Positions 17,130-35,142 of a DNA stretch of 64,000 bases are shown here, one piece after another (the first letter of the stretch is position 1; each line of letters opens with the position of its first letter). Below the pieces are notes generated by a model. It worked only from the letters and a program-made list of their open reading frames with translations, searched no databases and was not told where the DNA came from. A program made the translations under genes and the position numbers. The stretch spans positions 62,001 through 126,000 of the forward strand of contig NZ_FXAX01000005.1 of NCBI RefSeq assembly GCF_900177805.1. The letters run 5' to 3'. The stretch comes from Fibrobacter sp. UWB13. GTDB taxonomy: Bacteria > Fibrobacterota > Fibrobacteria > Fibrobacterales > Fibrobacteraceae.

Positions 17130-17190
17130 TTTGTTCAAAAAAAATTGTATATTAACCGAGCTAATTACGATTTTTCAAGGAGTTTCGTTT

Positions 17191-17793
17191 ATGCACAAAT
17201 TTCATATTCCCTTTTTACTAGTTGCATGCATGGCAACATCAGCATTTTGGGGATGCGGAAGCGATTCCAACGACGAAGACGATAGTTTTGTCAATGTTGG
17301 CGGCCAGCTTTGGTCTAAGGAAAATTTAAACATCCCAATCGAAGGAAGCTTCTGCTACGACAGCCTCTCCACCAACTGCGAAAAATACGGCAGGCTTTAT
17401 ACGTGGACCATGGCAATGAACATAGACGAAAGCTACGCAACAACAGAGCTCGGCAAAATCAAGTTACCACATCAAGGAATTTGCCCCGCAGGTAGCCACC
17501 TTCCAAGCCTTTCTGAATGGCAGCAGTTAGACGACTACCTCAACAAGCACCCTTCAGAAAAAGAGCTTTTCTTGAACCAAATCGGCGGATTCTACCGTCC
17601 TAATAGCGGCTTTTCAAACGAAAATATCGAATTGCTAATGTGGACATCAACCGAATACGACTACTCCGATCGACCCTACGCCGACAAATACAACTTCGCC
17701 TGGCTTGTCGTTCACCGCAAAAATTTAACGACAACGCAAGACAATCCAGTCAAGCAAGTCAGTGCATCCGTCCGTTGCATCAAGAATAAATAG
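17191..17793 (+). CDS. Fib_succ_major-type (TIGR02145) lipoprotein
   Basis: A 200-residue lipoprotein with lipobox AFWGC and an acidic linker (SDSNDEDD). The remainder has the hallmarks of the Fibrobacter succinogenes major paralogous domain: VNVGGQLWSKENLNIP, GRLYTWTMAMN, GICPAGSHLPSLSEWQQLDDYL, LMWTSTEYD and the ending SASVRCIKNK. The family is expanded in Fibrobacter and its function is unsettled; the CPAGxHLPS/EW pattern recalls C-type-lectin-like or formylglycine-enzyme-like folds. The ATG at 17191 has AAGGAG upstream; a longer frame from 17131 is rejected. It is a single gene with its own terminator. Confidence 0.9.
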   Translation: MHKFHIPFLLVACMATSAFWGCGSDSNDEDDSFVNVGGQLWSKENLNIPIEGSFCYDSLSTNCEKYGRLYTWTMAMNIDESYATTELGKIKLPHQGICPAGSHLPSLSEWQQLDDYLNKHPSEKELFLNQIGGFYRPNSGFSNENIELLMWTSTEYDYSDRPYADKYNFAWLVVHRKNLTTTQDNPVKQVSASVRCIKNK

Positions 17794-17941: not shown

Positions 17942-19267
17942 ATGAGTTTTAATTCTAGAGAGGGTTTTACCCTCATTGAGCTAATGGTATACATAGCTCT
18001 TCTTGGTGGTATAGTCCTTATAGCAGGACGAGCTTTTAGCGATAGCACTAAAATGCGTGTACGTACCCAGAGTATGTTACAGGCATCCCAGACCGTCGGA
18101 AACGTCGGTACAATACTCAAAGACGACATAGCCCAGCTAGGTGCAAAAAGCTCAAAAGAAGCTGGCGGCGGAACCATGGATGTGTTCAGCACCGACCATA
18201 TTCACGATGTTTACATGGATCCCGATGCTACAGAAGATGCAGACAAGGATTCATCTTCATTCACAATCGTCAAAAACGATGACGGAGACGGCAGGGACAA
18301 GATCACCATGCGCCGTCTGCGCTATTCCGATGCAGGCGTCTACCAGGCCGTCGAAGAAGTGACCTGGTTCCTTGAAGACCGCGTCCTTAAGAGATCTTGC
18401 AAAAGCACAAGCGCCCTGGTCGAAGATGCAGAATGCCCATCGGAAAACGCTAGCGTGGTTACAATCGCAGAACACGTGGACAAGTTCTCGCTCACGCCCG
18501 CAAAGCCCACTACAGAAGTGGCCTCCGTCAGCGTACTCCCCTCATCCAGCGAATCAGACAAGAACTTTAAACTGGTTTCCCGTTTTGGCGATGAAAACTT
18601 CGAGCCAGTAACGATTACCCCCGAAGAAGGCGGCACGTCTATTAAGCTTTCAGGCTTTTCCATGAATTACAACTTTACCACCAGCGAACCGATTAGCAAT
18701 CCGGACATGATCAAGGCGAATCAGGTTTTCGTTTCCAGTCTCGGAAGCAGCTTGTGTTCCTGGGGAGCCCAGTGCATCCAGGTCACCTTAAGCCCCTATA
18801 TTGAATACGAAATTTCATTTTCGATGCCCTATACCGCAACGGATGACCCCAGCAGAATGTTCTGCCCAGGCAGGGACCACATGGCTGTAGGCTTCAGGTA
18901 TGCCGAGAACGGCAACAAGCTCGACGGGCTGAGCGATTTTCAGTTCTACCCGCCAACCGTCGGCGATGAGCGCGACACGGGGCTCCGCAAGATGCGCTTT
19001 ACGACAAACACGACTTATGAAAACGTCTGTCTAGGATTCACTTTCGTCAGTTTCTCTCCTGTAGCCTCTTCAGGGAACATCACCATTTCAAACGTCAGGC
19101 TCCGAAAGGTTCCAAGTTCAAACTATACATTCACGGACGAGGCGATTGCAACAGCCGACAAGAAAAACGTAAAAGCCATCAAGCTGGAGCTATCCATCAA
19201 CAAGAATGGCGAAGCCGGAGCCGAGACAGCAATTATATCAATCCCAAGCAACGGCCCAAGAGATTAA
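17942..19267 (+). CDS. GspJ/PulJ-like minor pseudopilin, cassette 1
   Basis: A 441-residue protein with a class III leader: the 8-residue MSFNSREG, then the prepilin-peptidase site G|FTLIELMVYIALLGGIVLIAG with Glu at mature position 5. The mature N-terminal helix would anchor it in the inner membrane and then pack into a pilus-like filament. The remaining 400 residues are a soluble domain, about twice the size of a typical GspJ, with SMLQASQTVGNVGTILKDDIAQLG (the GspJ-like helical region) and a beta-rich end KLELSINKNGEAG...SNGPRD. The same C-terminal SNGPRD ends the cassette 2 paralogue. GAGG precedes the ATG. The K-like gene follows 21 bases later. Confidence 0.85.
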   Translation: MSFNSREGFTLIELMVYIALLGGIVLIAGRAFSDSTKMRVRTQSMLQASQTVGNVGTILKDDIAQLGAKSSKEAGGGTMDVFSTDHIHDVYMDPDATEDADKDSSSFTIVKNDDGDGRDKITMRRLRYSDAGVYQAVEEVTWFLEDRVLKRSCKSTSALVEDAECPSENASVVTIAEHVDKFSLTPAKPTTEVASVSVLPSSSESDKNFKLVSRFGDENFEPVTITPEEGGTSIKLSGFSMNYNFTTSEPISNPDMIKANQVFVSSLGSSLCSWGAQCIQVTLSPYIEYEISFSMPYTATDDPSRMFCPGRDHMAVGFRYAENGNKLDGLSDFQFYPPTVGDERDTGLRKMRFTTNTTYENVCLGFTFVSFSPVASSGNITISNVRLRKVPSSNYTFTDEAIATADKKNVKAIKLELSINKNGEAGAETAIISIPSNGPRD

Positions 19268-19288
19268 AAAAAATTGAGGAGTGTGGTT

Positions 19289-22200
19289 ATGTTTAGTAAA
19301 AAAGGTATTTCTCTTGTAACAGTTCTCCTGTTTATGCTCGTCGCTACAATCGCAGCGACAGCGACATTCAAGTGGCTCACTTCCGAGAACCGTTCTTCAG
19401 CAACGAGAATGCAGACTCAAGAAGCCCGCCAGAGCGCCATCGCCGGCATCCAAAGCACCAGAGCCTGGATGACCAACAACGCAAACGAAGTCGGCGCCCT
19501 TGTTCGCCAATACGTCCTCGGCAGGAAGCAGCCCATCTTGCTCAATAGCCGCGTTTCCCCGCACATCAGCAGCAAGCAGGATTTCAACGTCTGGCTGACC
19601 GGTGTTAGTGAAACCAACGGCTACTTCAAATTCAAGATTCTATCCGAAGGCATTGCGCGCAACAACTCAAAGCATACAGAAGCCGCAATCATCAACGTTT
19701 CAGGGCTTTACCAAGTATCAATTCCAGAAGCCGAAGAAGAGGAAACGTACAAGAGCATTGCCTATGACTACTCGTACTTTGGAGGTTCCATCTCGAACCA
19801 TGGCGATGCCAAACTTTCATCCATGCTAATCAACGGAAACTGGTCGGGAAACCCGATTGGCATTGACAAGAACATCATCATCACAGGACATGCCTCACTT
19901 TCCGGTGACAACGTCGATATTTACGGAACAGGTTGCATCGGTGGAAACCTTTATGCAAACAACGGTTTCGATGCAAAAAATCTCTATGTACACGGAACAT
20001 CCTATGATTTCGGTTCCAAAAATATCGAAACCAAAAAAGGCATAACAAACCACGCTTACTTCGATGGAGTAGTCATTCAATCTGCGAATGGTGAGAAAAA
20101 AATCACCGTCGGGGGCAACCTCACCATCAAAAATATTTTCAAGACGCACATGGGTACAGGAAGTTCTCCCGTCACCATCAACGGAAATCTTTGTGTTGAC
20201 TCCGCAATATCCCAAATTGAAATTGGAGGCTCTGTAGGTAGCGGGGCAACGTACAATCAACCATTTACAGTCAATGGAGACGTTTGGGTAACACACTCTA
20301 GAGCGTTCTATGCACATAACGGAGACTTCAGCAGTAACTACAACAAACTTATTTTGGGGAACACCGAAGATTCTAAAGTCTATATTCCAGACGCATACCC
20401 CTCCAGCAATTATGACGAAATGCGCAACAACAAGGCGTTTGTTGATAGTTGGGTAAACTATTGGAGTCCAAATTACAAACCATACGTGTATGTAGCTCCA
20501 GCTTCGGACAAATATTACTTTTATGTTGAGCCCAATGTAACAGATGTTTCATACAGCAGTGGCGTATATTATGTGGGCAACCAATTATTCAAAACTGTAT
20601 ATGGGTATAATGAATTTCAACATGGAACCGGTTATGATAAAAAGCTTTCACCATATTGCCGGCACAACACCGATGAAAATCGCCCAGAATGTCACGTATC
20701 ACCGTGGTTCCAATCCAAAGGAACAGTTACAAGAGATTTACCCGCAACTAGACCTGTAGCCTGTGCCGACTCCGTCAAGCAAGTCTGTTACGACATTTGG
20801 GAAGAAAAGCCGGGGTGCGACGGAGCTAGCTTCAAGGTGGATGACCTATTAACGACGGCATACAATCAATTCGTAAAATACGCCGATAGTGGTTGTGCAG
20901 CAGCAATCACAACCTTAAACGACGGTTTCGCAGAAGCAGCCAACACATGCTACGACGATAACACAAAAGATGATTACAAGAAAAAGAACCACATGTATAA
21001 CGGCTATCTCGTTGTAAAAATTGAGGCAACGCAGTTAAGTAAAAATTACGGAGACGGTCTCAAAGGAAAATTCATCATCATCGTGACAAACAAACCGGGA
21101 CAAGTCGCATTCCCACAGACCTATGGTGAAAATGACTACGTATTTCTCTACCTAACACAAGGTGCCGGTGAACTGATGGGGCTTGGTACGAGCAATTATA
21201 ATTACTTCATCTACACCAAAGAAGACATCGGATCATCAACGTATAGTGAAACAACACATCAAATCACTCCTAGTGGCGGAATTCTTTTCAACCACGCATC
21301 CCTCAGCGGATCCGTGTATGCCGAAGTTGGAACAGGAACCAATTGCGCCAAAGTGGCCGCACTGACGTCCTCCAAGCCATTGCTATTCAATCAAGACTTG
21401 ATGAACAGCCTGACCATTAACCGCATCATTTGCGATGCCTCCGTTACAAACTGCGGTGGCGCGGCATTCTCATCATCTTCCTCGGCGGCTCCCATGAGTT
21501 CATCCGCATCCGAAGAAAGCATCAACGGCAAGGACCCCTACTATATCTCCATTGCGCCTCAGCTAAACGTTACGCTAGAATCACAATACAAAGCTACAGA
21601 AGCAGCACCCGAAGACGCAAGCAACATCGACCCCTCCATTCTTGTGATTCCGCGAATCATTTACCTTTCCAGGAACGCAGCTGGAAAGCTTGCTGATTAT
21701 TATTCCGTCTTGAGTCTGAACGGCGCAAACGAAAACAAGAGCCCATCCAAAGTCAGTTGCAATGGCACATTTTCGACAACAGAAAAGCTTTACACAGGAA
21801 CAGAGCTGACTCCCGGAACATACACCTGTAACTACGCTTCAACAAATTACGGAACCATTCCGTTCTATGTTGTTGTAAGCAACACCAGCGGAGAGCTCCC
21901 GATCGTTTCGTTCCCGGAAGCACCGCATAACGTTCAGGCCCTCAGCTTGGGTTCCAGTGTCGATGTCTCGGTACATATCGGCAAATCCACCAACACCAGC
22001 GGGAAAATCAAATTCGACGTGGCCATAAACCAGCCAATATCCGACTGGACTATAACCACCAAGCCAGGCGTTACAGCTCGCAGCGGAAGCGGAAGCGCCC
22101 TTTACTATACAGTCGAAGTCACGCCGAATGCGACCGAGGAACAAGACATTGAAATCTTTACGATAAGCGCAGGTAGCAACGCTGATGACGGCGACATGTA

Positions 22201-25200
22201 TCTCACACTTAGTGCGCCGACAGAGCTCTGCCGCCTCGTATCGGGGGCTGGCCTCACCCACCACGTGTATCTCAGGGCCCACACGACCATCAATAGGGCG
22301 GAACTTTCCGATTACTGCCACGTCAACGATTGCGACGACGACATGAGCGAAAAAAGCGAACGCCCAGACTGCGAAATCAGCGACGAATGGATTATCGCTC
22401 ATGGTACAGCCTGTGGTATCGTCGAAAAGAACTATAGTTGGAAATGCTTGACCAACACAGCCATTTCACTTGCCTCCGTAAGTTCTGCCGACATTCCACA
22501 AGCATGCGAAATTATCATTCCGTCTACAAACAACTCCATCACATCACCTGTTGGCGGAGAAACAAAGAACCTTTACGCCTCCCTCAAGCGCAAAAAAGTC
22601 GAAGTGACGGTCAACCTTAAAAACGCATTCGACAAAAATACATCCGTCACACTACAAGGGCAACAATACACGTCTAGTCAAACTTGTACAAAAGAAAATA
22701 GCCCCTGCACATTCAACGTATTGGCGGGTGAACCCATTGTATTTACACACGAGGAATCCGGCGAAGACAAAGGAAACTTTAACTTCTGGGCCTGCGATGG
22801 CGACAATTGCGCAAGTCCAACTACGCACGAAGACGAACCCGTATTTACATTCTACGGGCCTCATACCATTACAGCCGAATTCAACAAGGAATCGCACTGC
22901 TATTACGATGACTTCACAAATATCGGTGCATTCTGTTCGAACGGTGAAAAAAACTGCATCGACACATGCGCCACGATGCTCTCTAAAGGAACACATTGCG
23001 CACCGAAAAACAGCAAGCAGCCCAAGTCCCATTGGCTCATGACCTACCACAACAGCGGGAACGGCAACAACGCAGAATATACCCGTCCAAACTTCGGCAA
23101 CGGCTCCATTTACGCTCCGAATACCAAGAATGCAAACAACCAAAGCGGGAAAGTTTCCATTATTTTGAGAAACATGACCACAGGTCTATACGGAACAATG
23201 TTTGCCCTTGTCAAAACCTCCATACTGGAGAAATCGACAGCAAACGACTTCCTGAATTCGGGACTCATTTTCAGAAGCAACGGGAACGAACACCTGATTC
23301 TAAACATCTTCGGAGTCAGCAAGCCCAACAGCACAGGAGAATTGACATTCCGCGTCTGCAAGGTCAGCGGACAGGCAATAAACAACACATCACAGGGTTC
23401 CTGCAAAGAAGTTCCCAAGAAAGAAGGTTCGACCCCAATTTATATAACCAGCAATTCCTTTATCAAAGTCAGGTTTACCATCGATGAAAAAGACCTGTTA
23501 AAAGTCACAGCAAAAGTCGATGACGATACTTGGGAAGGAGAGCTCAACGTCAAGGATTACCAATGCAACGACGCCGCGTATTCACACGTAGGCATTAGCT
23601 TGGCAGATCAGGACTTCAAGATTTTCGACAACGGCTGGGTTCCATCCGCATTTGAAGAAACATGCTGGGACGTTCCGACCGTATCGTGCAACTTTGTCGA
23701 CAAGTACGAAATCGTTCCCTTAAACGACTACGTATCGCCCAAAGTCCTTGTATCCAGCTGGTTCTCCGAAAAGAACTGCTCCACGGAGTACTATTATAAC
23801 GGTTGTGACAACTCGACATCTGAATGCATCAACGGTACAGGGACACCAGGCGAAATCGGCTCGAAACTCGACGGTGAAACATACCAGTTTACCCAGGAAG
23901 GTCAGCACGGCTACCTCATCGACGAGAACAAGAAAGCTCAGGACGCCTCCATCAAGGTGGTATGCCCCGGTGACGCCGGCAGTCTGGACCTCGCCCAGGA
24001 CTTCTACAGCTGCGGAACCTTCCAAGTCGGGACAACCCAAAACTGCATCAACGATTTCGAAATCGTAAACGAAGCCCAGTACATGGGTGAAAACGTCCCC
24101 TATGAATTTTTAACACCCAAAACAAACGGCATCAACTTACGCGATGCCCAATTGCACATTAACATCAAGAAGGGCAGCGAAATTGCAGACGGCAACAACC
24201 TTGGCGCAAACTTAAAAGTCCACCTGCTCTCCGCAAACAAAATGCAGAGTTTGACAAGAACCATAAGCACCGCCGGGGCGCATGACATAAATGTTGATGA
24301 CCTTATTGGAACCACGGGCTTCAATCCCGAACAAGTCACAAAAGTCATCATTACAAGCGATAATAGCATCAACATCGAAAAGCTGCACATCCACAGCAAA
24401 TGTCCGAACAAACTCGACCTCAAGTGCGAACAGGCAGTCTACGACTATACGAACAAAGGCTGGAAAATCAAGATAAACCACCAGAAAGATGGAGTCAAAT
24501 GCTCGTACACTTCAACAGATCCGAACATCAACTCCGAAACCGATGTCAATTGCAGTGACGTCATTTACCTGCAATACGGAAACGGTTTTGTCAATAACTG
24601 GATTATCTACAATGAACCGCCGACATTCACGGTCACAGCGACAAACAGCTTCGGTTCTGAATCCTGCACCATCAAGGGTGAAAAAATTGGGAACAACAAC
24701 GTTACCTGCAGCGTTCCAACTGACCAGCAGACCATCGAATTCGATTCAAAGGCACCTGTATTCAATTTCAAGTTTGGCGAAAGCATCAACGGCTGGGACT
24801 TCAATGTCAATTACAACGTGTATCTGGACAATACCATCGTGAAAAGCAACGGCACCGCCAAAATGGGAGCCACGCAATCGTACTCGCCTTCGGACTCCGA
24901 TACAAAGCCTGCCAGTGGTGGTCACACATACAAAGTCTCTTTCATTATCGGCAACTGGACGCAGTCCTGTACAGCCTCGTTTACCGTAGAAGACAAGACA
25001 AAGCAAGCGCCCACCATTTCGTCTTGCAGTGTCGAGGACAACGGCAAATTTACGGCTATCGTAAGCAATCCTGACGACGTCAACTATACATACACATTTA
25101 CCATCCTAGACAATATCGGAAACAAGCTTCTCGATGGAACAACAGGCTCAGGAAATGAATCGACCATCGACTATACATACGCGCCAGGAAAGGCGGGCAC

Positions 25201-25852
25201 ATACAACTATACCGTAAAAATCGGGGAAAGCTCTTGTTCCAAGCTAAAGACAGTGACATCCCCCATTGAACTCTCATGCCCGACAACAATCACTGGACAG
25301 AATGCAAGTGAAGCTATCGTCGTAAGCCCGACAGTCAAGAACTGCTCCAGCTGCTCTTACAAGATCTTCTACGAAGACCTCGAAAAGAGTTCTGACCTCA
25401 TATTCTATGACCGCGAAGCAACAGGAACAAAGCAATACCGTCTACAAGCAACCGACATCAACGACAACGTCGCGAATTGCAACTTCAACGTGTCCTTCAA
25501 CAGTCAAAGCAGCAGCACCGTCGTTCTCAATTACAATTACAGTAATGACTGGCACTACTTCAGCGAAGGGACCTACGACATCAAGTGCGAAGGCAATGGC
25601 GGAAGACTCGTCTGCAAATGCCCAAATGCCGAATGGGGCTATTCGAACTGCAAGATTCAATATCACGGAACCGTCGTCGAAGTAAAGCCTTCACAGTCAG
25701 GCGGACAAACCGTTGACGGCTCCAAGGACGATATTTGCCACAGCGGTTACGAGACAACCATAACCATCCTCCCGCCGAACAGTGCAAACCCAAGCGTCCA
25801 AGAAAACGCTAAACAACAGGGCAAGGGAATGTACTGCCAGCACTCCTGGTAA
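19289..25852 (+). CDS. giant GspK/PilX-like pseudopilin with adhesin-type ectodomain, cassette 1
   Basis: 2187 residues. Start: ATG 19289 with GAGGAG before it (a TTG at 19274 is weaker). The N-terminus MFSKKG|ISLVTVLLFMLVATIAATATF resembles a prepilin leader but has Thr, not Glu, at mature position 5, as in GspK/PilX tip subunits. The ectodomain in order: GspK-like helical part (30-140); beta-helix-like turns with repeated GGNL/NGNL (about 165-365); a Cys-rich conserved block (SPYCRHNTDENRPECHVSPWF, about 450-520); a Ser linker (about 725-745); Ig-like segments; an InlB-B-repeat-like domain (about 1100-1200); a concanavalin/LamG-like segment ending HVGISLADQDFKIFDNGW (about 1205-1455); then several Cys-paired beta-sandwich repeats to the end. 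Typical GspK is about 330 residues. A tip-adhesin role is inference. Confidence 0.8.
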   Translation: MFSKKGISLVTVLLFMLVATIAATATFKWLTSENRSSATRMQTQEARQSAIAGIQSTRAWMTNNANEVGALVRQYVLGRKQPILLNSRVSPHISSKQDFNVWLTGVSETNGYFKFKILSEGIARNNSKHTEAAIINVSGLYQVSIPEAEEEETYKSIAYDYSYFGGSISNHGDAKLSSMLINGNWSGNPIGIDKNIIITGHASLSGDNVDIYGTGCIGGNLYANNGFDAKNLYVHGTSYDFGSKNIETKKGITNHAYFDGVVIQSANGEKKITVGGNLTIKNIFKTHMGTGSSPVTINGNLCVDSAISQIEIGGSVGSGATYNQPFTVNGDVWVTHSRAFYAHNGDFSSNYNKLILGNTEDSKVYIPDAYPSSNYDEMRNNKAFVDSWVNYWSPNYKPYVYVAPASDKYYFYVEPNVTDVSYSSGVYYVGNQLFKTVYGYNEFQHGTGYDKKLSPYCRHNTDENRPECHVSPWFQSKGTVTRDLPATRPVACADSVKQVCYDIWEEKPGCDGASFKVDDLLTTAYNQFVKYADSGCAAAITTLNDGFAEAANTCYDDNTKDDYKKKNHMYNGYLVVKIEATQLSKNYGDGLKGKFIIIVTNKPGQVAFPQTYGENDYVFLYLTQGAGELMGLGTSNYNYFIYTKEDIGSSTYSETTHQITPSGGILFNHASLSGSVYAEVGTGTNCAKVAALTSSKPLLFNQDLMNSLTINRIICDASVTNCGGAAFSSSSSAAPMSSSASEESINGKDPYYISIAPQLNVTLESQYKATEAAPEDASNIDPSILVIPRIIYLSRNAAGKLADYYSVLSLNGANENKSPSKVSCNGTFSTTEKLYTGTELTPGTYTCNYASTNYGTIPFYVVVSNTSGELPIVSFPEAPHNVQALSLGSSVDVSVHIGKSTNTSGKIKFDVAINQPISDWTITTKPGVTARSGSGSALYYTVEVTPNATEEQDIEIFTISAGSNADDGDMYLTLSAPTELCRLVSGAGLTHHVYLRAHTTINRAELSDYCHVNDCDDDMSEKSERPDCEISDEWIIAHGTACGIVEKNYSWKCLTNTAISLASVSSADIPQACEIIIPSTNNSITSPVGGETKNLYASLKRKKVEVTVNLKNAFDKNTSVTLQGQQYTSSQTCTKENSPCTFNVLAGEPIVFTHEESGEDKGNFNFWACDGDNCASPTTHEDEPVFTFYGPHTITAEFNKESHCYYDDFTNIGAFCSNGEKNCIDTCATMLSKGTHCAPKNSKQPKSHWLMTYHNSGNGNNAEYTRPNFGNGSIYAPNTKNANNQSGKVSIILRNMTTGLYGTMFALVKTSILEKSTANDFLNSGLIFRSNGNEHLILNIFGVSKPNSTGELTFRVCKVSGQAINNTSQGSCKEVPKKEGSTPIYITSNSFIKVRFTIDEKDLLKVTAKVDDDTWEGELNVKDYQCNDAAYSHVGISLADQDFKIFDNGWVPSAFEETCWDVPTVSCNFVDKYEIVPLNDYVSPKVLVSSWFSEKNCSTEYYYNGCDNSTSECINGTGTPGEIGSKLDGETYQFTQEGQHGYLIDENKKAQDASIKVVCPGDAGSLDLAQDFYSCGTFQVGTTQNCINDFEIVNEAQYMGENVPYEFLTPKTNGINLRDAQLHINIKKGSEIADGNNLGANLKVHLLSANKMQSLTRTISTAGAHDINVDDLIGTTGFNPEQVTKVIITSDNSINIEKLHIHSKCPNKLDLKCEQAVYDYTNKGWKIKINHQKDGVKCSYTSTDPNINSETDVNCSDVIYLQYGNGFVNNWIIYNEPPTFTVTATNSFGSESCTIKGEKIGNNNVTCSVPTDQQTIEFDSKAPVFNFKFGESINGWDFNVNYNVYLDNTIVKSNGTAKMGATQSYSPSDSDTKPASGGHTYKVSFIIGNWTQSCTASFTVEDKTKQAPTISSCSVEDNGKFTAIVSNPDDVNYTYTFTILDNIGNKLLDGTTGSGNESTIDYTYAPGKAGTYNYTVKIGESSCSKLKTVTSPIELSCPTTITGQNASEAIVVSPTVKNCSSCSYKIFYEDLEKSSDLIFYDREATGTKQYRLQATDINDNVANCNFNVSFNSQSSSTVVLNYNYSNDWHYFSEGTYDIKCEGNGGRLVCKCPNAEWGYSNCKIQYHGTVVEVKPSQSGGQTVDGSKDDICHSGYETTITILPPNSANPSVQENAKQQGKGMYCQHSW

Positions 25853-25872
25853 CCATTATTCCAGATTTTCAT

Positions 25873-25901
25873 CAAGGCTCCCCCGCTGGGGAGTCTTTTT
25901 T
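25873..25901 (+). terminator. intrinsic terminator closing pseudopilin cassette 1
   Basis: GGCTCCCC and GGGGAGTC arms (one G-T wobble) around CGCT, followed by six T. Confidence 0.85.
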
Positions 25902-25995
25902 GTTGATTTTCATCATTTTTCAGGTGAAATCAGACAATAAAAAAGATTTTTTTTATCACTTTTTCATACATAAAACTTATTTTTAAATTAACAGG

Positions 25996-26017
25996 AATCA
26001 TGCATAAAAGCATGGTT
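25996..26017 (+). other. hairpin in the leader of cassette 2
   Basis: AATCATGC and GCATGGTT (one G-T wobble) around ATAAAA, in the AT-rich leader about 80 bases before the cassette 2 J-like start. There is no T-run, so it is not an obvious terminator. The rest of 25902-26094 is AT-rich and holds nothing else recognised. Confidence 0.4.
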
Positions 26018-26094
26018 TTACGGCAATTACAAAAAAAGGGTAACGAGGGCAGAATATGGAGTTTTTAAGTCAAGTATTGGACAAGGGTACAAGA

Positions 26095-27477
26095 ATGCCC
26101 AGGTCTACCAAAGCAGGCTTTACCCTCATCGAGTTGATGGTCTACATCGCCCTTCTTGGAGGTATTGTTCTCATCGCGGGTCAGGCGTTCAGCGACAGCA
26201 CCAAGATGCGAATGCGCACACAGAGCATGTTGCAGGCTTCGGAAACCGCAGAAAAGGTGGCATCCATATTCAAGGCTGATATCGCACAAACAGGGGCAAA
26301 GACTTCCATGGAAGATGGAGCCTCGGAATCTGGAGCAGAATACGGCAACAAGTTCAGCAATATCTACTCGAACGTTTACATGGATCCCAACAGCGACAAT
26401 AAAGATTCGTCCTCTTTTTCTGTCGTGACCAAAGACGGTTTCGATAGCCTTACTATTCGACGTTTACGTTACGATGAATCCGGACATTACGTCGCCGTCG
26501 AGCAAATTGCCTGGTTCGTCCAAGACGGATCGCTTTGGCGCAATTGCAAAGTCATCGAAAAGAAAACGACACTCCCTGACGACGACCCCTGTACCGACGG
26601 TGCGACATCGGAGCCCAACAACATCGAAATGGCATCAGGCGTGAGCAAGTTCAAAATCACTCCAGGAAAACCCGGCGTTGTAGGGAACAACATCCAGCTA
26701 TTCCCAGCCGTAGGCGAATCCGAATTCAAATTCGTCGGTAGAAATGACGGAGACCGTGAGATGCCTATCGTGAGCAATGAAGCAGGAGAAATGCACAAAG
26801 GCGGAAACACACAGACCATATCCGGATTTTACCAGAACTACGACCAAAACATGCAAACCATAAAAAGCGAAGCCGCCCGAAAGATCAACGAAGTTATCGC
26901 AGTCCGTAACGAAACATTCTCGGATTTTTCGTGGCAGACTCTTTGCGCCCAAGAAGGCAACAACTTTACTTTTGAACCGAACAACGAATATGAAATTTCA
27001 TTCGAAATCCTACCCACAGACGAAAATGCGGATAAAAGCAAGCTGTTCGTTCCAGGCGAAGACCATATGGCAGTCGGTTTGAGAAGTCTCGAAACAGGGA
27101 CATCCTTTACATATGGCGAGCCAGCCACCAAATTTAGTGATTTTGCATTTTTCCCACCTTTGGGCGTCAAGAACGAAGGGAGCGGAGAGCGCTCCATGCG
27201 TTTTTCTGTCCCAGATAAGTTTACAAAAGCGTGTATCGCATTCACGTTCGCCTGCTATTCCCCTCTCGTATCGCAAGGGAAAATATCCATCACAAAATTG
27301 AAAGTCCTAAAGATACCCAGTGCAAACTATAAATTCGAAAATTACGATTTCGAAGCTAACAAAAGCGACAAGCAGAACGTCAAGGCGTTTCTGCTGGATC
27401 TGGATATTACAAACAGAGGTGAGGCCGGACATGTTGAACTGGTTGTTCCTGCACCAAGCAACGGTCCACGCGATTAG
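26095..27477 (+). CDS. GspJ/PulJ-like minor pseudopilin, cassette 2
   Basis: A 460-residue paralogue of the gene at 17942. With the ATG at 26095 the leader is MPRSTKAG, eight residues, matching the paralogue's eight-residue MSFNSREG; an in-frame ATG at 26056 would give a 21-residue leader and also has a GAGGG site. The mature start FTLIELMVYIALLGGIVLIAGQAFSDSTKM differs from cassette 1 at one position in 30, whereas the soluble domain is much more diverged. The ending is again SNGPRD. Glu5 is present. The K-like gene starts nine bases after its stop codon, behind AGGAGG. Together the pair repeats the gspJ-gspK gene order of type II secretion systems. Confidence 0.85.
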   Translation: MPRSTKAGFTLIELMVYIALLGGIVLIAGQAFSDSTKMRMRTQSMLQASETAEKVASIFKADIAQTGAKTSMEDGASESGAEYGNKFSNIYSNVYMDPNSDNKDSSSFSVVTKDGFDSLTIRRLRYDESGHYVAVEQIAWFVQDGSLWRNCKVIEKKTTLPDDDPCTDGATSEPNNIEMASGVSKFKITPGKPGVVGNNIQLFPAVGESEFKFVGRNDGDREMPIVSNEAGEMHKGGNTQTISGFYQNYDQNMQTIKSEAARKINEVIAVRNETFSDFSWQTLCAQEGNNFTFEPNNEYEISFEILPTDENADKSKLFVPGEDHMAVGLRSLETGTSFTYGEPATKFSDFAFFPPLGVKNEGSGERSMRFSVPDKFTKACIAFTFACYSPLVSQGKISITKLKVLKIPSANYKFENYDFEANKSDKQNVKAFLLDLDITNRGEAGHVELVVPAPSNGPRD

Positions 27478-27485
27478 GAGGATTT

Positions 27486-30400
27486 ATGTTTAAGCAAAGA
27501 AATATGAAATCCGGTGTATCTCTTATCACCGTACTGATGCTAATGCTTATTGCAACTATTGCGGCAACAGCCACCTATAAGTTGCTCACAAGTCAAGGAC
27601 GCTCTAGCGAAAGCAGAATGCGCCAGCAAGAAGCTTATCAAAGTTCACAGGCTGGTATCGAAAGCGCCCGAATGTGGATGACATTCCACGCGAATGATGT
27701 CGGTGCATTGATAAAATCATTCATTGACGGAGGCAACAAGCCCATAAACCTTGACGCAAGGTTACGCCCGTTGCAACGCGCTGGGCAAAACTACCACGTA
27801 TGGCTTACAGGTGTGAACACCGAAAAGACCACGTTCAAATTAAAAATTCTTTCCTCCGGCGAATCTAGGAACAACACCCAATGGAACGAAACCGCCATCT
27901 TTAACATAGACGGTTTGTATCGAGTCAGGCTTTTTGAAGAAAACGATTATAGCGCCATTCCGTTCAGGTACAATTACTTTGGTGGTTCTACGCACACAGA
28001 AGGTCATTCAAAAGCATACTCGTTGCTAGTCAATGGCAATCTAAACGGATCTAACCCCGTATACACCGATGACGATCTTATCGTTACAGGAGATGTCAAT
28101 ATAACCGGTAGTTCAGTCGGTGCAGGAACAACGGCATGCATCGGAGGAAACCTCAATGCCAACAACGGTGTACTCGGCAATGACTTCTACGTCGGAGGCA
28201 ACGCGACCAGTTTCACGTTCCCGACAAACTCTGAAGCAGCAGGCCTCTATAACGCGAACGTCACAGGCAACGTTTATATAGAAGGAAATCTTGACGCACC
28301 AAGTACAGGCGATCAAAAATTCCAGAAAAATCTGACACTCAACGGCACATGGTATACAAACTTTTCAGCGCACGATTCCCGTGTCGCAGGGAACATGTGC
28401 TTAGGGGAAAACGGCCAAGTTCTCATTAGCGAAAAAAATCCCGCACGTGATTTTCTCGTCGGCGGAAACGTTTGGGCCGAATCGACATACCCCATATGGA
28501 TTACAAACGGAGAAGACAACGAAGGCGAATACAACAAGATTATTCTAGGTAACAAAAAGGATTCCAAAGTTTACATCAAGAGCGCCCACCCCATCGCTGA
28601 TTACGTAACGCTCAGAAACAACAGAACGTTTATCGAAAAGAATACCTATTACAAAGGGTCCTACTATTACGGCGCCCAAGCAAAATGGGATAACAAGACA
28701 ACCCGCCCATACCCTGATTTAAAACCCCACATGAAGAATAAACAGGACGCTTATTACCTCTACTACTACAACGGTCAAGGCCAAGATGTTGACTACATCG
28801 TTTCAAATGCAGGAGGATGGGGCTGGGGCGCACAAGCGTATTACGCCAACTATTATGTCGGAAACAAAGTTTTTTACACCCCCCAAAGAGGCTATTGGGG
28901 ATCGTATGGCTACACCCCAGAAAAAAACAACTTCTTGAATTACGAAAACGGTACGCCAACAGGCTCGCCATACTGCAAGGCGACTCCAGATAAGTGGCGC
29001 CCCGAATGCCGAGTTACCCCGTGGTTTAAATCCCAGGGAACCGTATCAAGCGAATTACCGGCAAGCCAACCTTTTGAATGCGCCGAATCCGTCAAAACCT
29101 ATTGCAACAAGCTCTGGAAAAAGAAAGAAGGCTGCGACGGGGCTAGCTACAAAGTCGATGACATTCTCGTCACAGCCTACAACAAGTTCATACCGTACGC
29201 AAACAAAAACTGTCCCGAAGTATACACATGGGGCAACACAATGAGCGACAAGCTCAACTCGTGTTATAAAAAAAACAGCGAGGATCCAAACAATTACAAG
29301 AACAACCTTTACAACGGTTATCAAGTCGTCAAAGTTTATAATCGTGGCGAAATTAAAGATCCTAAAACTCCCTTAAAGGGCAAGTTTATCATTGTCGTGA
29401 CAGACGCTTTAGGAATGCAAAAATTGCCCCCGACTACGGCAGATTCATACGTACTCCTCTATCTGACAGAAGGCGCAAGTTCCACGCTTCAACCTGCAGA
29501 TGACAACGGCATATACAATTACTTCATCTACACCAAAAAAGATATTGGCGGGTTATTGTTTAACAATTCTACTTTCAGCGGCTCGGTTTATGCAACCGCA
29601 GACAACTGCGCAAAAGTAGGCGATTTCAAGACCCGATCCTTGGTTTTCAACGACGACATGATGAACGATTTGTCGGCAAACGCCGTCATCTGTAACGCTT
29701 CTGTAGGCGAAAGTTCTTGCGGGGGTTCTACAACAGGAACTCCAGAGTCGGCCTCGTCTTCGTCTGAAACGACCGTAAATCAATTTGATACTTATTACAT
29801 TTCAATGGCTCCGCAATTGGGCGTAAGACTGGAATCCCAGAACAAGAGTTCAGAAGCCACCCCACAAGCAAACAGCAACAACATTACAGAACTTTCGCCA
29901 TCTTTCATCGTGCTTCCGCGAATCATTTACCTGCCTAGCGACCCCTACGGACAGCTGACCGACTACTACAACGTACAAACGCTCAACAGCAATGGCGCGG
30001 CCTTGAGAAAATCAGATGTAAACGTATCTTGCTCTGGGCCGGGAACACTGTCTACAACAGGGAGCCTCTATATGGGAACAGCACTCAGCAGAGGCCTCTA
30101 TACTTGCACTGCGGCTGCAAGCGGTTACCCAAGCATCCCCTTCTGGGTCCACATCGGCAAAGACACCCGTGGAACCACAACTATCGTATTCGAAAAAGAA
30201 TCCGAAGAAATGGATTCCGACGACCAAGAAGAAGTCAAGCTTGTCGTCCCTGCACATGCGGCAGAACTTACCGTAAACTTCTATTGCCCCGACGTCGAAA
30301 ATGAAGCATGGTCCTATGTTTCTTTGGGCGACAACGTCACGCGCAATGGGACGTCTTGCACACTTAAACTAGTGGCCAATTCTTCGCAAACCACACCGAC

Positions 30401-33400
30401 TATAGCCACCATAAAGACTTCAAATGCCGTAAAAGGAACATTACTGTTCCAGTTGCTCCCAGGAGAAGGCTACATTCCTGGCTCGCCCTCCTCAACAGAA
30501 CTCTACATTGCATCAAGCGCGCAGTTGAACCGTGAAGAAGTTTCTTCAACAGATATCAAGGAATACTGCGACAACCATTCGGGAAGCTGCCCCTCAAATT
30601 ACGAATCATACTGGCCCGACTGCGACGTTTCTGGAGTGTGGGTAGAACCCTCCGGAACATCATTCATCAACTTGATAGACAACAGCTCCTGGGTGATTAC
30701 CGTCGGCAACACACAAAGCGTCACCCTCACGGGCACAAGCAACAGCAGCGACTGCGTAACGATTATCCCAGAAACAGATAACTCAATTGCCGCAAACGCA
30801 GTGCAAGCAAACAGGAACTACACCTTGCGAGCAAGCGCCAAGGCGAAAAAAAGAACATTCACCGTGGGCTTTAAAGGCAACGTAGGATCTGGCAATAATC
30901 CGACAATAACCCTGTATATCGATAGTAATTACGGTAGTCGAAACGAACAATGCCGCTACGACGATGCAAGAAACAATGAAGAAACATCCACAAAGACGTG
31001 TACATTCTCGATTTTCAAAGGCGAGAGTGTGAAAGCCGCCCTTGAAGACAACGATGACTCCAACGAGTTCAGTTATTGGAAATGTACCGGCGGAAGTTGC
31101 CCAACTACCGACGATGCCAACACGAGTAAGGAATTCGACGCATTCACAATTTCTGACGACAATACCGAATTAATAGCATACTTTGGCGAAAACGACAAGC
31201 ACTGTTTCTTTGACGAGTTCAAGCGAAACAGCGTAGAATGCGGAGACGATGTGCAATACTGCATTGACAAATGCAGCAACAACGACATCTATTCTACATG
31301 TACAGGCGCCATAGACGGAAACAGCTTGTACCCGAATGCGAAATGGCACTTGATTTCGGGTTATTTATCACAAATTGTCGTCGGCTCTAGTGGCGAAATC
31401 CACATCGACAAATCTGCAGTCAAGAAGCAGAAACAGTCCACCAGAAATCCGGTTATGGTCCTTAGCACGGTGAACGCAGGTATCTTAGGCACGCTCAAAG
31501 CCTTGATCAACGTACCACGCGTAACGACCAGCTATGACAATTCTTCTTCCAACATCAAGAACTCCGGGTTCATGCTCCGTGCCAACACGTACGGAAACGA
31601 CTACTTCATGTTGAACCTGTACGAAAACAGCAGCGGAAATCTTGAAGCGCAGCTCTGGAAAGGCACGACAAGTTTGACTTCCACATTGACCAACAGCAAT
31701 GGTTACAAAGCTAATGTGTCCACATCAAAGATGGTCATGGCGACCATCAGCATCACGGCATCGGGAAAAATCGAAGTACGCGCAAACATCGGGGACTTCT
31801 ATAACGACTCTCCGTCGGAATATGAATGTTCGTTCGACCTTTCGGAATTCAACAACCCGCTGGCCGATGCGGCCCATGAATACGTCGGATTTAGCCTCGG
31901 TGACCCAAACTTCAAAATCTACGGCATAGGTTGGAAGAGCGCCACTTACAATTCTGAATGCTATGATACCTACCCCACCGTCAAATGCTCGTTTGCAGCA
32001 GTGGCAACAGATGGAGTCATCAAAATAGATACGCTTGTTAAACCTTGGGTTGGCCATTCTGGATGGTTCGATTCCAAGGGCTGTACACCGCTCTATTACT
32101 ACTACAACGGCAATGACGCCAGAACAACTTGCGATGGCGAATCCTGCAATGACGGTTACAAGTTCGACAAGAGTGGAATTGGCGCTCACGGCTACACCGA
32201 AGCAGGAACTGAATACAAAACAGCAAAAGCATGGCTCGGGAACTGCACGAACATCGACGAAACCGCCATGGCCTGGGGGGTCACATCCGACAAGGAACGC
32301 GCTCATTGCGGTGCTTTCTGGACTGGTGAATTTACGGACTGCTTAGCGCATCAAGACCTCTTTAGCGGTTCAAAAAGCATCGGAAGCCTTGAAGAAACCA
32401 TCGTTTTCGAGAACAAGCAAAACCTCAGAGCTGCAACACTCCACGTAACGCTCGAGAACACCGACAACAACGAAGTAGAAATCTGGTTGGTCAGCGAAAG
32501 CGATAACTGGGGCGAATACGATCACGAAAGCCATTCTGTCAGCATGAGCGGAACAACAGGATCGTTCAACATCATGCAAGAATTTGCTACAGGTTCAAAC
32601 GGTTTCGACCCTGAAAACGTAAAACAGATTGTCTTGAAAAATCACGGTTCTACAAGTGTTACGGTAACATTGATTACAAGCACTTGCGCCAAAGCCATCG
32701 GCATAACCTACTGTAAAGCGGAATACGATGGTGACAATTGGAACGTGACAACACAGGTGACAAACAAGAACAAGAGACTAATTTCAAAACAACAGATTAC
32801 GGCAACTGTCGACGGCTCTACCCTCATTAATCAAACTAAAGATGCCACAGGTAACGATGCTATTGTATGGAATGGCGACATGGCAACACTCAGCATTCCT
32901 GATCCAACCGTTTACAGTCATCAGGGGAAATCGTACGTCTTTAACGCAACAATTACAGGCACATCCGGCCAAACATTCTCAAAGCAATGCTCGGTCTCTC
33001 CGGACCCGATTGGACTCATCGGCGTTGATTGCTCGGTCATTAGCGCTGTAGCAAGCGGAGCAAGATTCCCGACATTTAACGTCAACTTCAGCGGATGCCC
33101 TGGCGCAGGCTGTGGCTATGAAATCTATTTGGACAACGGATACACTCCGTTTGCAACAGGAACGGAAAAGACAGCCGCTCGCCATTCCGCAAACCAAAGC
33201 GAATCTTGCGACAGGACCGAAGGTTGCGAACACACTTACACCGTGAAGAGCACCGCAAGCCGTGCACCTTTTAAAGACTGTAGCGCAAGCTTCAAAGTTC
33301 AAAGAAACGCAGACGACATTCCCCCATCAGTAACATGCGGTATTTCGACAAACCCGAATGGATTTACCTCTGATCCGGTATCCATTTCGGACAATCTGTA

Positions 33401-34751
33401 TTTCCTTGCTCGAAACAACGAAAGTGTCGAAAAGCAATATCCAGTTACACTGAAACAAGGTGAAACACAATTGGGCTCAGCGACATTGAGCAACTGGTCT
33501 AATTTGACGAACATCCAAAATTTGGGAAAACTCGCCGCCGGTGACTACACTTACAGCCTTTACTACAATAACGAAAAGATTTGCGATGTTCCTGTTACAG
33601 TGAACGAAGAAACATCGGGCGCATGCCACATATCCGGAAACATGTACGAAGGGCAACAGATTGAGATGAACGTGTCCGGGGTTACAAAAAACACACGATA
33701 CACATGGACGTTAAACGGGAATAGCCAACCCATAGACTGTGCACCAAGCAATTGTTGGAATAATACGAGAACCGCACCTACAACTCCAGGCACTTACAGT
33801 TACTCCGTGACAAGCGGTACGAGCAAGATATGCGAAGGAAGCGTAACTATTGAACCAATGCTTTCTTGCTCAGTGACTCCGTCTGAACTTAATAAAAAGG
33901 CGTATTACACATTTACTGCAACTAGAAATCAAAATTGCTGGAATTGCTATTACACTTATGATTCGGGGACTCAAAGCGTATATTTCCCCGATAACTCGAA
34001 CACTATTGAATTACCAAAAATGGCAAGGGTTGCCGGAGGAAAGACATTAACTTTAGCCTGTACATGCGGAGACAATAATTATGGAGCAAGTTGTTCAAGA
34101 AACATCACAATTAATAATACGGAAGATCCTTTAACGTGTCCGACAGACCCCAATCCTTATGAATGGGAATGCCAAACTAATGACGGAAAGGGCGATATCA
34201 AAAATTGGGGTACGGGTGCAAGATGTGTAAAAATAAAGGCTTCAAAAGTTACTGTACAGTCAAGTAGTGCTAATGGGCGTGCATTCTGTGTTAATGGGAA
34301 TGAAGCTGAAATGGGTGAAAATAATATCATGACAAAGGAGTATTCCGCCGCTGATGATGGCTATATAACAGTGTGTGCTACAGCTGGGGATTATTCATAT
34401 ACGCAAATTGGGTGGTATAATTGTAAAAAATCTGCTGAGGAAATAACATTTGATTGCAACACCAACAATTCAACAGATCTCACAGGTAATGGAAATCATT
34501 CAGTATCAGCGAATACTTGTTATACCTTTAGTTGTTATTTCGGAACAGATGGTGCAAATACAGGCAGTTGGAATTTCTCCGCTCCTGTTGCCGGAACAAA
34601 AATGACATACACGGATTGTTCAGGGAATACACAAACATACACGTTCCAATATGATAACTACTGGTATGAAAAGATTAATATTGGAGCCTGTAGAATCTAC
34701 TTAAAATCCACCGCTGATATGACAATTGCAGATTGCGACTGGAAAAACTAA
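27486..34751 (+). CDS. giant GspK/PilX-like pseudopilin with adhesin-type ectodomain, cassette 2
   Basis: 2421 residues, paralogue of the gene at 19289. Leader MFKQRNMKSG|VSLITVLMLMLIATIAATATY, again with Thr at mature position 5. Same order of parts: GspK-like helices, GGNL/NGNL beta-helix-like turns (about 170-365), a Tyr/Gly/Trp-rich insert absent from cassette 1 (about 385-480, e.g. GGWGWGAQAYYANYYVGN), the conserved SPYCKATPDKWRPECRVTPWF block, a Ser linker (about 755-765), an InlB-like region (about 1120-1235), a LamG-like segment ending YVGFSLGDPNFKIYGIGW (about 1240-1485) and Cys-paired beta repeats. The last 200 residues are encoded by clearly more AT-rich DNA and differ from cassette 1. 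GGAGG lies before the ATG. The carbohydrate target, if any, is unknown. Confidence 0.8.
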   Translation: MFKQRNMKSGVSLITVLMLMLIATIAATATYKLLTSQGRSSESRMRQQEAYQSSQAGIESARMWMTFHANDVGALIKSFIDGGNKPINLDARLRPLQRAGQNYHVWLTGVNTEKTTFKLKILSSGESRNNTQWNETAIFNIDGLYRVRLFEENDYSAIPFRYNYFGGSTHTEGHSKAYSLLVNGNLNGSNPVYTDDDLIVTGDVNITGSSVGAGTTACIGGNLNANNGVLGNDFYVGGNATSFTFPTNSEAAGLYNANVTGNVYIEGNLDAPSTGDQKFQKNLTLNGTWYTNFSAHDSRVAGNMCLGENGQVLISEKNPARDFLVGGNVWAESTYPIWITNGEDNEGEYNKIILGNKKDSKVYIKSAHPIADYVTLRNNRTFIEKNTYYKGSYYYGAQAKWDNKTTRPYPDLKPHMKNKQDAYYLYYYNGQGQDVDYIVSNAGGWGWGAQAYYANYYVGNKVFYTPQRGYWGSYGYTPEKNNFLNYENGTPTGSPYCKATPDKWRPECRVTPWFKSQGTVSSELPASQPFECAESVKTYCNKLWKKKEGCDGASYKVDDILVTAYNKFIPYANKNCPEVYTWGNTMSDKLNSCYKKNSEDPNNYKNNLYNGYQVVKVYNRGEIKDPKTPLKGKFIIVVTDALGMQKLPPTTADSYVLLYLTEGASSTLQPADDNGIYNYFIYTKKDIGGLLFNNSTFSGSVYATADNCAKVGDFKTRSLVFNDDMMNDLSANAVICNASVGESSCGGSTTGTPESASSSSETTVNQFDTYYISMAPQLGVRLESQNKSSEATPQANSNNITELSPSFIVLPRIIYLPSDPYGQLTDYYNVQTLNSNGAALRKSDVNVSCSGPGTLSTTGSLYMGTALSRGLYTCTAAASGYPSIPFWVHIGKDTRGTTTIVFEKESEEMDSDDQEEVKLVVPAHAAELTVNFYCPDVENEAWSYVSLGDNVTRNGTSCTLKLVANSSQTTPTIATIKTSNAVKGTLLFQLLPGEGYIPGSPSSTELYIASSAQLNREEVSSTDIKEYCDNHSGSCPSNYESYWPDCDVSGVWVEPSGTSFINLIDNSSWVITVGNTQSVTLTGTSNSSDCVTIIPETDNSIAANAVQANRNYTLRASAKAKKRTFTVGFKGNVGSGNNPTITLYIDSNYGSRNEQCRYDDARNNEETSTKTCTFSIFKGESVKAALEDNDDSNEFSYWKCTGGSCPTTDDANTSKEFDAFTISDDNTELIAYFGENDKHCFFDEFKRNSVECGDDVQYCIDKCSNNDIYSTCTGAIDGNSLYPNAKWHLISGYLSQIVVGSSGEIHIDKSAVKKQKQSTRNPVMVLSTVNAGILGTLKALINVPRVTTSYDNSSSNIKNSGFMLRANTYGNDYFMLNLYENSSGNLEAQLWKGTTSLTSTLTNSNGYKANVSTSKMVMATISITASGKIEVRANIGDFYNDSPSEYECSFDLSEFNNPLADAAHEYVGFSLGDPNFKIYGIGWKSATYNSECYDTYPTVKCSFAAVATDGVIKIDTLVKPWVGHSGWFDSKGCTPLYYYYNGNDARTTCDGESCNDGYKFDKSGIGAHGYTEAGTEYKTAKAWLGNCTNIDETAMAWGVTSDKERAHCGAFWTGEFTDCLAHQDLFSGSKSIGSLEETIVFENKQNLRAATLHVTLENTDNNEVEIWLVSESDNWGEYDHESHSVSMSGTTGSFNIMQEFATGSNGFDPENVKQIVLKNHGSTSVTVTLITSTCAKAIGITYCKAEYDGDNWNVTTQVTNKNKRLISKQQITATVDGSTLINQTKDATGNDAIVWNGDMATLSIPDPTVYSHQGKSYVFNATITGTSGQTFSKQCSVSPDPIGLIGVDCSVISAVASGARFPTFNVNFSGCPGAGCGYEIYLDNGYTPFATGTEKTAARHSANQSESCDRTEGCEHTYTVKSTASRAPFKDCSASFKVQRNADDIPPSVTCGISTNPNGFTSDPVSISDNLYFLARNNESVEKQYPVTLKQGETQLGSATLSNWSNLTNIQNLGKLAAGDYTYSLYYNNEKICDVPVTVNEETSGACHISGNMYEGQQIEMNVSGVTKNTRYTWTLNGNSQPIDCAPSNCWNNTRTAPTTPGTYSYSVTSGTSKICEGSVTIEPMLSCSVTPSELNKKAYYTFTATRNQNCWNCYYTYDSGTQSVYFPDNSNTIELPKMARVAGGKTLTLACTCGDNNYGASCSRNITINNTEDPLTCPTDPNPYEWECQTNDGKGDIKNWGTGARCVKIKASKVTVQSSSANGRAFCVNGNEAEMGENNIMTKEYSAADDGYITVCATAGDYSYTQIGWYNCKKSAEEITFDCNTNNSTDLTGNGNHSVSANTCYTFSCYFGTDGANTGSWNFSAPVAGTKMTYTDCSGNTQTYTFQYDNYWYEKINIGACRIYLKSTADMTIADCDWKN

Positions 34752-34769
34752 AATTTTTCATTACCACCT

Positions 34770-34799
34770 AAAAAGCTCCCCCACCAGGGAGCTTTTTTG
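34770..34799 (+). terminator. intrinsic terminator closing pseudopilin cassette 2
   Basis: AAAAGCTCCC and GGGAGCTTTTTT around CCACCA. It resembles the terminator of cassette 1 in its CTCCC/GGGAG core. Confidence 0.9.
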
Positions 34800-34827
34800 T
34801 TATGTAAGGAAAAATTCTATTTCAATA

Positions 34828-34845
34828 TATAGAGAAATTTCTATA
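34828..34845. promoter_or_regulatory. operator-like inverted repeat at the ArsR-type gene
   Basis: TATAGA (34828-34833) and TCTATA (34840-34845) are inverted around GAAATT. The right arm overlaps a -10-like TATATT (34842-34847) that ends seven bases before the ATG, as expected for autorepression. Confidence 0.45.
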
Positions 34846-34854
34846 TTTCTATAC

Positions 34855-35142
34855 ATGGTAAAGATCAACTACACAAAAATTGCAAAACAGCTTAAGGTCA
34901 TGGCAGATCCGAAACGCCTCAAAATCATCTACTTGCTATCCAATGGAGAAATGTGCGCCACCGATATTTTAAAAGAATTTCGGGTATCGCAGCCAACTCT
35001 TTCGCACGACATGAAGGCTCTTGTCGATGGAAAATTCGTAATCGCGGACCGCATTGGGCAAAAGATATTATACAGCCTGAATCCAGACACTATTTTCGAA
35101 CTTCAGGCAGCGCTCGGCGAGATATGTAACGAGGATTTGTAG
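34855..35142 (+). CDS. ArsR-family winged-helix regulator
   Basis: A 95-residue repressor-type protein. Seen: MADPKRLKIIYLLSNGEMCATDILKEFRVSQPTLSHDMKALVDGKFVIADRIGQKILYSLN, the ArsR winged helix with the recognition helix SQPTLSHDMKAL. It lacks the ELCVCDL arsenic-site motif and the DxH...H alpha-5 zinc motif, so the inducer cannot be read from the sequence. The ATG at 34855 is chosen because the family domain begins there; no Shine-Dalgarno is present and the -10-like TATATT is seven bases upstream, suggesting a leaderless message. No obvious target other than itself lies nearby; pheS downstream seems to have its own promoter. Confidence 0.85.
   Translation: MVKINYTKIAKQLKVMADPKRLKIIYLLSNGEMCATDILKEFRVSQPTLSHDMKALVDGKFVIADRIGQKILYSLNPDTIFELQAALGEICNEDL

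Follow-up and report, generated by a model that had tools for sequence, protein, structure and literature searches.

We analysed a 64,000-nucleotide window of the Fibrobacter sp. UWB13 genome (assembly GCF_900177805.1, contig NZ_FXAX01000005.1, positions 62,001 to 126,000), in which the open reading frames (ORFs) listed between 17942 and 34751 form two J-K cassettes in tandem (Table 1). In each cassette, a J-type minor pilin gene is followed by the gene for a giant K-type minor pilin that lacks glutamate at position 5 of the mature protein (Glu5). Fibrobacter is a gut digester of plant fibre and a major cellulose degrader of the rumen. How it grips cellulose is a long-standing question, to which these giant tip-type pilins suggest an answer. 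A sequence-only reading of the same DNA had described both cassettes, with Glu5 in J and a Glu5-less K of 2200-2400 residues, and the ORFs bear this out; it placed the start of the pair correctly but ran on to 34799, 48 nt beyond the K2 stop.

Two tandem minor-pilin cassettes

Both K proteins begin with a short, basic leader that ends in glycine and is followed by a hydrophobic helix. For K1, the ATG at 19289 (2187 aa, KKG/ISLVTVLLF) is a more likely start than the TTG. The computed mature forms are about 238 kDa with an isoelectric point (pI) of 5.1 and 60 cysteines for K1, and about 264 kDa with a pI of 5.0 and 71 cysteines for K2. K1 and K2 are 32% identical across about 2,050 aa and J1 and J2 are 42% identical, indicating that the two cassettes are diverged paralogues. 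J1 is conserved, with a mean column identity of 48% across 15 homologues.

The PilX_N model (PF14341) scored 21.6 and 24.8 bits on K1 and K2 in a protein scan (cut-off 25.5), and 28.3 and 32.1 bits, above the cut-off, when the same model was used in a genome search. The sole NCBIfam match of K1 is to the GspK N-terminus; the GspK model itself remained far below its cut-off (E 0.05 for K1 and 2.6e-4 for K2). The remaining ~2,100 residues of K match nothing above cut-off in Pfam, and the PilY1 beta-propeller (PF05567) is found in neither K1 nor K2 up to E=1. A PDB sequence search with K profiles returned no convincing relatives. PHROGs gave no match either, so there is no sign of a phage protein. 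A Verru_Chthon cassette, an NCBIfam pilin-like family on which our literature search found no paper, was considered and set aside; its weak N-terminal matches are to J and H only, with none to K.

Table 1. Genes of the two cassettes and predicted parts of K2 (window coordinates)
Feature	Position	Strand	Description	Basis
J1	17942-19267	+	J-type (PilW/GspJ-like) minor pilin, 441 aa, GFTLIELMVY, Glu5, large ectodomain	ORF; PF07963 above cut-off
K1	19274-25852	+	Giant K-type (PilX/GspK-like) minor pilin without Glu5	ORF, 2192 aa from TTG; PilX_N
J2	26056-27477	+	Second J-type minor pilin, 473 aa, FTLIE, Glu5	ORF; PF07963 above cut-off
K2	27486-34751	+	Second giant K-type minor pilin, 2421 aa, KSG/VSLITVLML, without Glu5	ORF; PilX_N
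K2 class III leader and pilin module	27486-27920	+	Residues 1-145; alpha1 13-81, strands 102-141	AlphaFold model
K2 beta-solenoid module	27957-29708	+	Residues 158-741; tapirin/ComZ-like, with Cys-rich block	AlphaFold model, structure realignment
K2 Ser-rich linker	29718-29774	+	Residues 745-763	Sequence
K2 Ig-like beta-sandwich chain	29775-31187	+	Residues 764-1234	AlphaFold model, Foldseek/realignment matches
K2 ConA-like lectin/LamG-like domain	31188-31949	+	Residues 1235-1488	Structure realignment
K2 GH2 sugar-binding-domain-like jelly roll and FnIII/Ig-like repeats	32343-33308	+	Residues 1620-1941	Structure realignment
K2 variable distal end	33246-34748	+	Residues 1921-2421	Replaced in close relatives

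Giant K proteins across Fibrobacter

Giant Ks are not a chance find. They are present in 76 of 80 Fibrobacter genomes, including all 40 with a completeness of 90% or more and a contamination of 5% or less (hereafter good genomes), and the 72 distinct complete Ks range from 1,936 to 3,201 aa, with a median of about 2,470. The 59 loci from a scan of a genome collection bear the labels Fibrobacter, Fibrobacteraceae or Fibrobacterales, except for two contigs labelled Bacteroidales (L102 and L121); as these carry Fibrobacter-type J-K genes, they are probably misbinned. Several genomes carry K in two or three copies, arranged either head to head or in tandem. In several Fibrobacter genomes, one of them from horse gut, (H-I-)J-K operons form divergent head-to-head pairs (L047, L048, L049 and L057).

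Glu is absent from mature position +5 in all 83 distinct Ks (Thr in 55, Ala in 20, Val in 7 and Met in 1), and all 83 have the class III leader motif, a Gly before the hydrophobic helix. Upstream sequence exceeds 3 kb for 71 distinct Ks, and a Glu5-bearing J lies directly 5' in 70 of them, so the J-K pairing sought in other Fibrobacter genomes holds almost throughout. A third gene, I (GFGIVEV...RGRDGA), lies near K in 44 of the 71, and both H and I in 34 (about half), in the order H-I-J-K; the best models are GspI/PilV for I and GspH/PpdA for H, all below cut-off. Both gspHIJK and fimU-pilV-pilW-pilX are arranged in the same way. F. intestinalis ATCC 43854, for example, carries all four genes H-I-J-K in one operon (L066). 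In the source genome, H and I lie on another contig (L037:7325-7882 and 6856-7317, respectively, minus strand) and are orthologues of the operon H and I, to which they are 42% and 52% identical.

Outside Fibrobacteraceae, the K N-terminal module matches only open frames of about 520-790 aa, which lack Glu5 wherever the start was available. The ~1,700-residue arm that follows the module therefore appears to have been added to a solenoid pilin at the level of the family. Among Fibrobacter Ks, conservation is highest in the pilin helix and lowest in the distal third of K.

The distal ends appear to be exchanged between Ks. We compared 23 pairs of Ks with at least 60% identity over their first 1,500 residues, excluding one possibly truncated protein, and in 9 of these pairs the last 320 residues have no detectable similarity. 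Conversely, in three K pairs the cores are 33-34% identical and the ends 55-68% identical. K2 and its relative in genome G046 are 93-98% identical per 60-residue block between residues 1680 and 1920, falling to 19-32% by 2220-2400, and from roughly 430 nt past the stop the flanking DNA is again 97% identical. The distal end of another K (L116:2933-11581) has a sub-threshold match to CBM64 (E 0.0021, residues 2711-2753).

Predicted architecture of K2

We predicted the structure of K2 with AlphaFold in two parts, residues 1-752 and the next 1,187 residues, with a predicted confidence (pLDDT) of 87.7 and 86.0. The N-terminal model consists of alpha1, a short helix, three strands up to residue 141 and a beta-solenoid until about residue 720. 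The pilin module matches the Thermus competence pilin 6qvf (Z 6.7), EpsI/EpsJ (2ret, Z 6.0) and PilV (5v23, Z 4.2), which gives moderate support to a pilin alpha/beta fold, with its three-stranded sheet, behind alpha1. The pilin core proposed in the sequence-only reading is thus found in the model, but in the form of ComZ rather than GspK.

The top match of the solenoid is the C-terminal domain of tapirin (4wa0, Z 14.6, 299 residues aligned, root-mean-square deviation (rmsd) 3.8), followed by a second tapirin structure (6n2b, Z 13.6, 293 aligned, rmsd about 4) and by ComZ (6qvi, Z 11.6, 331 aligned, spanning residues 39-739, rmsd 13.5). The high rmsd to ComZ probably reflects a different placement of its two domains. 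An ice-binding protein (Z 11.3) and the LpxD/GlmU helices (Z about 10) come behind or level with ComZ, with less coverage. The tapirin and ComZ matches come from realigning candidates pre-ranked by Foldseek on a predicted model, and we regard them as fold likeness, given that there is neither Foldseek significance nor sequence similarity.

Further along the chain, the ConA-like domain matches the C-terminal beta-sandwich of a GH43 enzyme (5joz, Z 12.3, 182 aligned, rmsd 3.5) and the mannose lectin YwfG (7yl5, Z 10.2), and residues 1620-1941 match GH2 N-terminal domains (Z about 10) and FnIII domains (Z about 9). Complement/alpha-2-macroglobulin and ciliary proteins, which took the top Foldseek ranks for the C-terminal model, were taken as generic beta-sandwich chains and not as homologues. 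The order of parts proposed from the letters alone largely holds; the beta-helix is recovered in the structure prediction, the Cys block and Ser linker in the sequence, the LamG-like part as a ConA-like fold and the Cys-paired beta repeats as Ig/FnIII-like sandwiches, while the InlB-like part has no Pfam match up to E=1 in K1 or K2.

Several known proteins share part of this layout. The giant Ks have in common with PilX/PilK of type IVa pili and GspK of type II secretion a class III leader, a hydrophobic alpha1 without Glu5, the last place in an H-I-J-K operon and, at or near the cut-off, PilX_N similarity. They differ in being six to ten times longer, in carrying a lectin/Ig arm, in having a beta-solenoid where GspK has its alpha-domain, and in their number, which is one to three or more in each genome. 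ComZ of Thermus thermophilus (PMC6561018) also joins a pilin module to a large beta-solenoid, is proposed to sit at the pilus tip and binds the pilin encoded next door; unlike K, it is a DNA-binding protein with a crystal chain of about 510 residues and no distal arm, and it has no sequence similarity to K. Tapirins, the best structural match to the whole solenoid module, adhere to cellulose but are much smaller, come from a Firmicute and share no sequence similarity with K. They are cited as attaching Caldicellulosiruptor to cellulose in PMC9933333.

Modular pilins as such are already known and widespread, with 860 aa the largest case named in a global survey (PMC8179133). In PilB and PilC of Streptococcus sanguinis (PMC8179133, PMC9934059), an adhesive or lectin domain is grafted on a pilin module, with a ConA-like lectin module in PilC; K similarly pairs its pilin module with an arm that contains a ConA-like lectin fold and one resembling the GH2 jelly roll. 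The profile searched in the survey, IPR012902, does not match the Ks, which would therefore have been missed. Giant tip-type pilins are easily overlooked, since the standard pilin profile misses them. The PilY1/PilC tip adhesin is also a large, modular and variable tip effector but not a pilin; we found no PilY1 match in 168 Fibrobacterota genomes, although control genomes also gave none and its absence is unproven. Our literature search found no paper on giant K proteins and none naming both Fibrobacter and PilX. In the literature searched, then, giant solenoid-lectin K pilins are not described as a genus-wide trait; they extend modular pilins to about 3,200 residues, far larger than any we found described.

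Pilus machinery and proposed function

In the source genome, one cluster encodes PilM, PilO, a secretin and a PilN-like protein, which is recognised by where it lies and by the INLLP at its start. The genome also encodes PilB with MshEN, PilC with PilT, another PilT-like ATPase and just one prepilin peptidase, giving the set PilB-T-C-M-(N)-O-Q-D; together with H and I on another contig, this agrees with the expectation that the remaining pilus genes lie away from the cassettes. PilM is present in 40/40 good genomes. According to the S85 genome paper, which counted six pilin genes, the full set of genes for a pilus is missing (PMC3079729), whereas the present genome appears to have one.

At a separate locus, a GspD-like secretin is accompanied by two small pseudopilins and a K-like protein of 317 aa. 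Of nine N_methyl matches in the genome, two fall at this locus, four are H, I, J1 and J2, and three are PilA/GspG-like; H-I-J-K is the only minor-pilin set that we found for the PilB/T/M/O/Q machine. As the GspD-like locus owns a short K, this inventory makes H, I, J and K the natural tip set of the pilus machine, and the machine that the giant K serves is most likely a type IVa pilus. The 317-aa protein (L033:9275-10228, minus strand; G000:C3 ~51.3-52.2 kb), which lacks Glu5, has a sub-threshold match to the FapA beta-solenoid in Pfam (E 3.7e-4) and may on that account also carry a solenoid.

We think it likely that the cassettes encode type IVa pilus-tip adhesins that bind plant polysaccharide, with J as adaptor and K as the Glu5-less cap. 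The H-I-J-K tip complex is known to be capped by a subunit without Glu5 (PMC10191384), and PilX of Myxococcus, also without Glu5, is placed atop the complex or at the tip (PMC7541494). J and K would then be the top two subunits of the tip complex; H, I, J and K would initiate the filament in the inner membrane, PilB/PilC would drive its growth through the PilQ-type secretin, and K, without the Glu5 that pairing with a subunit above requires, would end up at the tip. Its pilin module would bear the tapirin/ComZ-like solenoid and then the arm, with Ig/FnIII-like spacers, a lectin fold like that of ConA and a distal domain open to swapping. Solenoid and arm would attach to insoluble plant polysaccharide, with cellulose as the likeliest target, and the cell would be drawn onto the fibre as PilT retracts the pilus.

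This proposal draws on the observed gene content, operon order, conservation, Glu5 absence, machine presence, predicted folds and distal swapping. Its first half, a Glu5-less K at the tip with a J partner, had been anticipated in the sequence-only reading and is now strongly supported by the operon, the 0/83 count, the ComZ-matching pilin-plus-solenoid model and the pilus machine elsewhere in the genome. The picture changes in two respects; in place of a GspK core with its alpha-domain insert we find a PilX/ComZ-like core with a beta-solenoid, and the machine is most likely the type IVa pilus. The suggested adhesion to plant fibre gains support from the tapirin-like solenoid and the lectin fold, with the ligand still something we infer. 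In F. succinogenes, pilin levels are slightly higher on cellulose (PMC4668043, PMC6851124), and cellulolysis-deficient mutants lack one of the pilins (PMC6851124).

Several points weigh against this proposal. The J-K cassettes are not linked to the machine genes, K has no carbohydrate-binding module above the Pfam cut-off, and searching PDB sequences up to E=10 matched K to neither tapirin nor ComZ. Foldseek alone was not significant on the N-terminal model (best E 0.22); solenoids look alike in general, and the matches to tapirin and ComZ stem from its realigned candidates. The pilin-module matches, taken alone, are only modest (Z 4-7). A subunit of ~240 kDa would also have to pass the secretin, and processing of K by the single prepilin peptidase, its location at the surface or tip and retraction are, like the ligand, inferred.

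The J-K pair could instead belong to a type II secretion pseudopilus, with K as a giant subunit for substrate recognition or surface display. HIJK complexes are used by both kinds of machine (PMC10191384), and the GspK match of K1 and the GspD-like secretin fit this reading. We nevertheless consider it unlikely, because the GspD-like locus already has its small pseudopilins and short K, while the pilus machine would be left without any other minor-pilin set. Moreover, a pseudopilus normally stays within the envelope. In another reading, about as unlikely, K would be a surface protein, either anchored in the inner membrane or shed, that is exported by means of a pilin-like leader and never polymerises, its distal variability serving escape from phages or protozoa. 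Its size is extreme for a filament subunit, and the distal ends diverge where the flanking DNA stays 97% identical, but the retention of J at 70/71 loci and of H-I at about half points to assembly of a pilin complex, and the pilin module is the best conserved part. Also unlikely, we think, is that K is a tip pilin but a DNA receptor for natural transformation rather than a binder of plant fibre, as proposed for ComZ with its same pilin and beta-solenoid layout (PMC6561018), since the K solenoid is nearer tapirin than ComZ (Z 14.6 vs 11.6), the Ks are acidic (pI 5.0-5.1), the long arm has a ConA-like lectin fold and swapped distal ends suit variable surface ligands more than DNA.

The pilus-tip adhesin reading connects the tips of pili with a fold known from cellulose adhesins and names specific genes for work on Fibrobacter adhesion. 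As a more tentative generalisation, which we put forward as possible rather than probable, all Fibrobacter might hold cellulose by retractable type IVa pili with one giant K per tip, combining a tapirin-type solenoid with exchangeable distal binding domains, and the tapirins of Caldicellulosiruptor might represent a shorter form of this kind of cellulose adhesin carried on pili.

Two neighbouring genes complete the locus. Immediately 5' of J1, at 17131-17793, lies a gene for a Fib_succ_major protein (PF09603, E 1.4e-14), probably a lipoprotein. Directly after K2, at 34726-35142, is an ArsR-family regulator (PF01022), possibly a regulator of the cassettes, followed by pheS.

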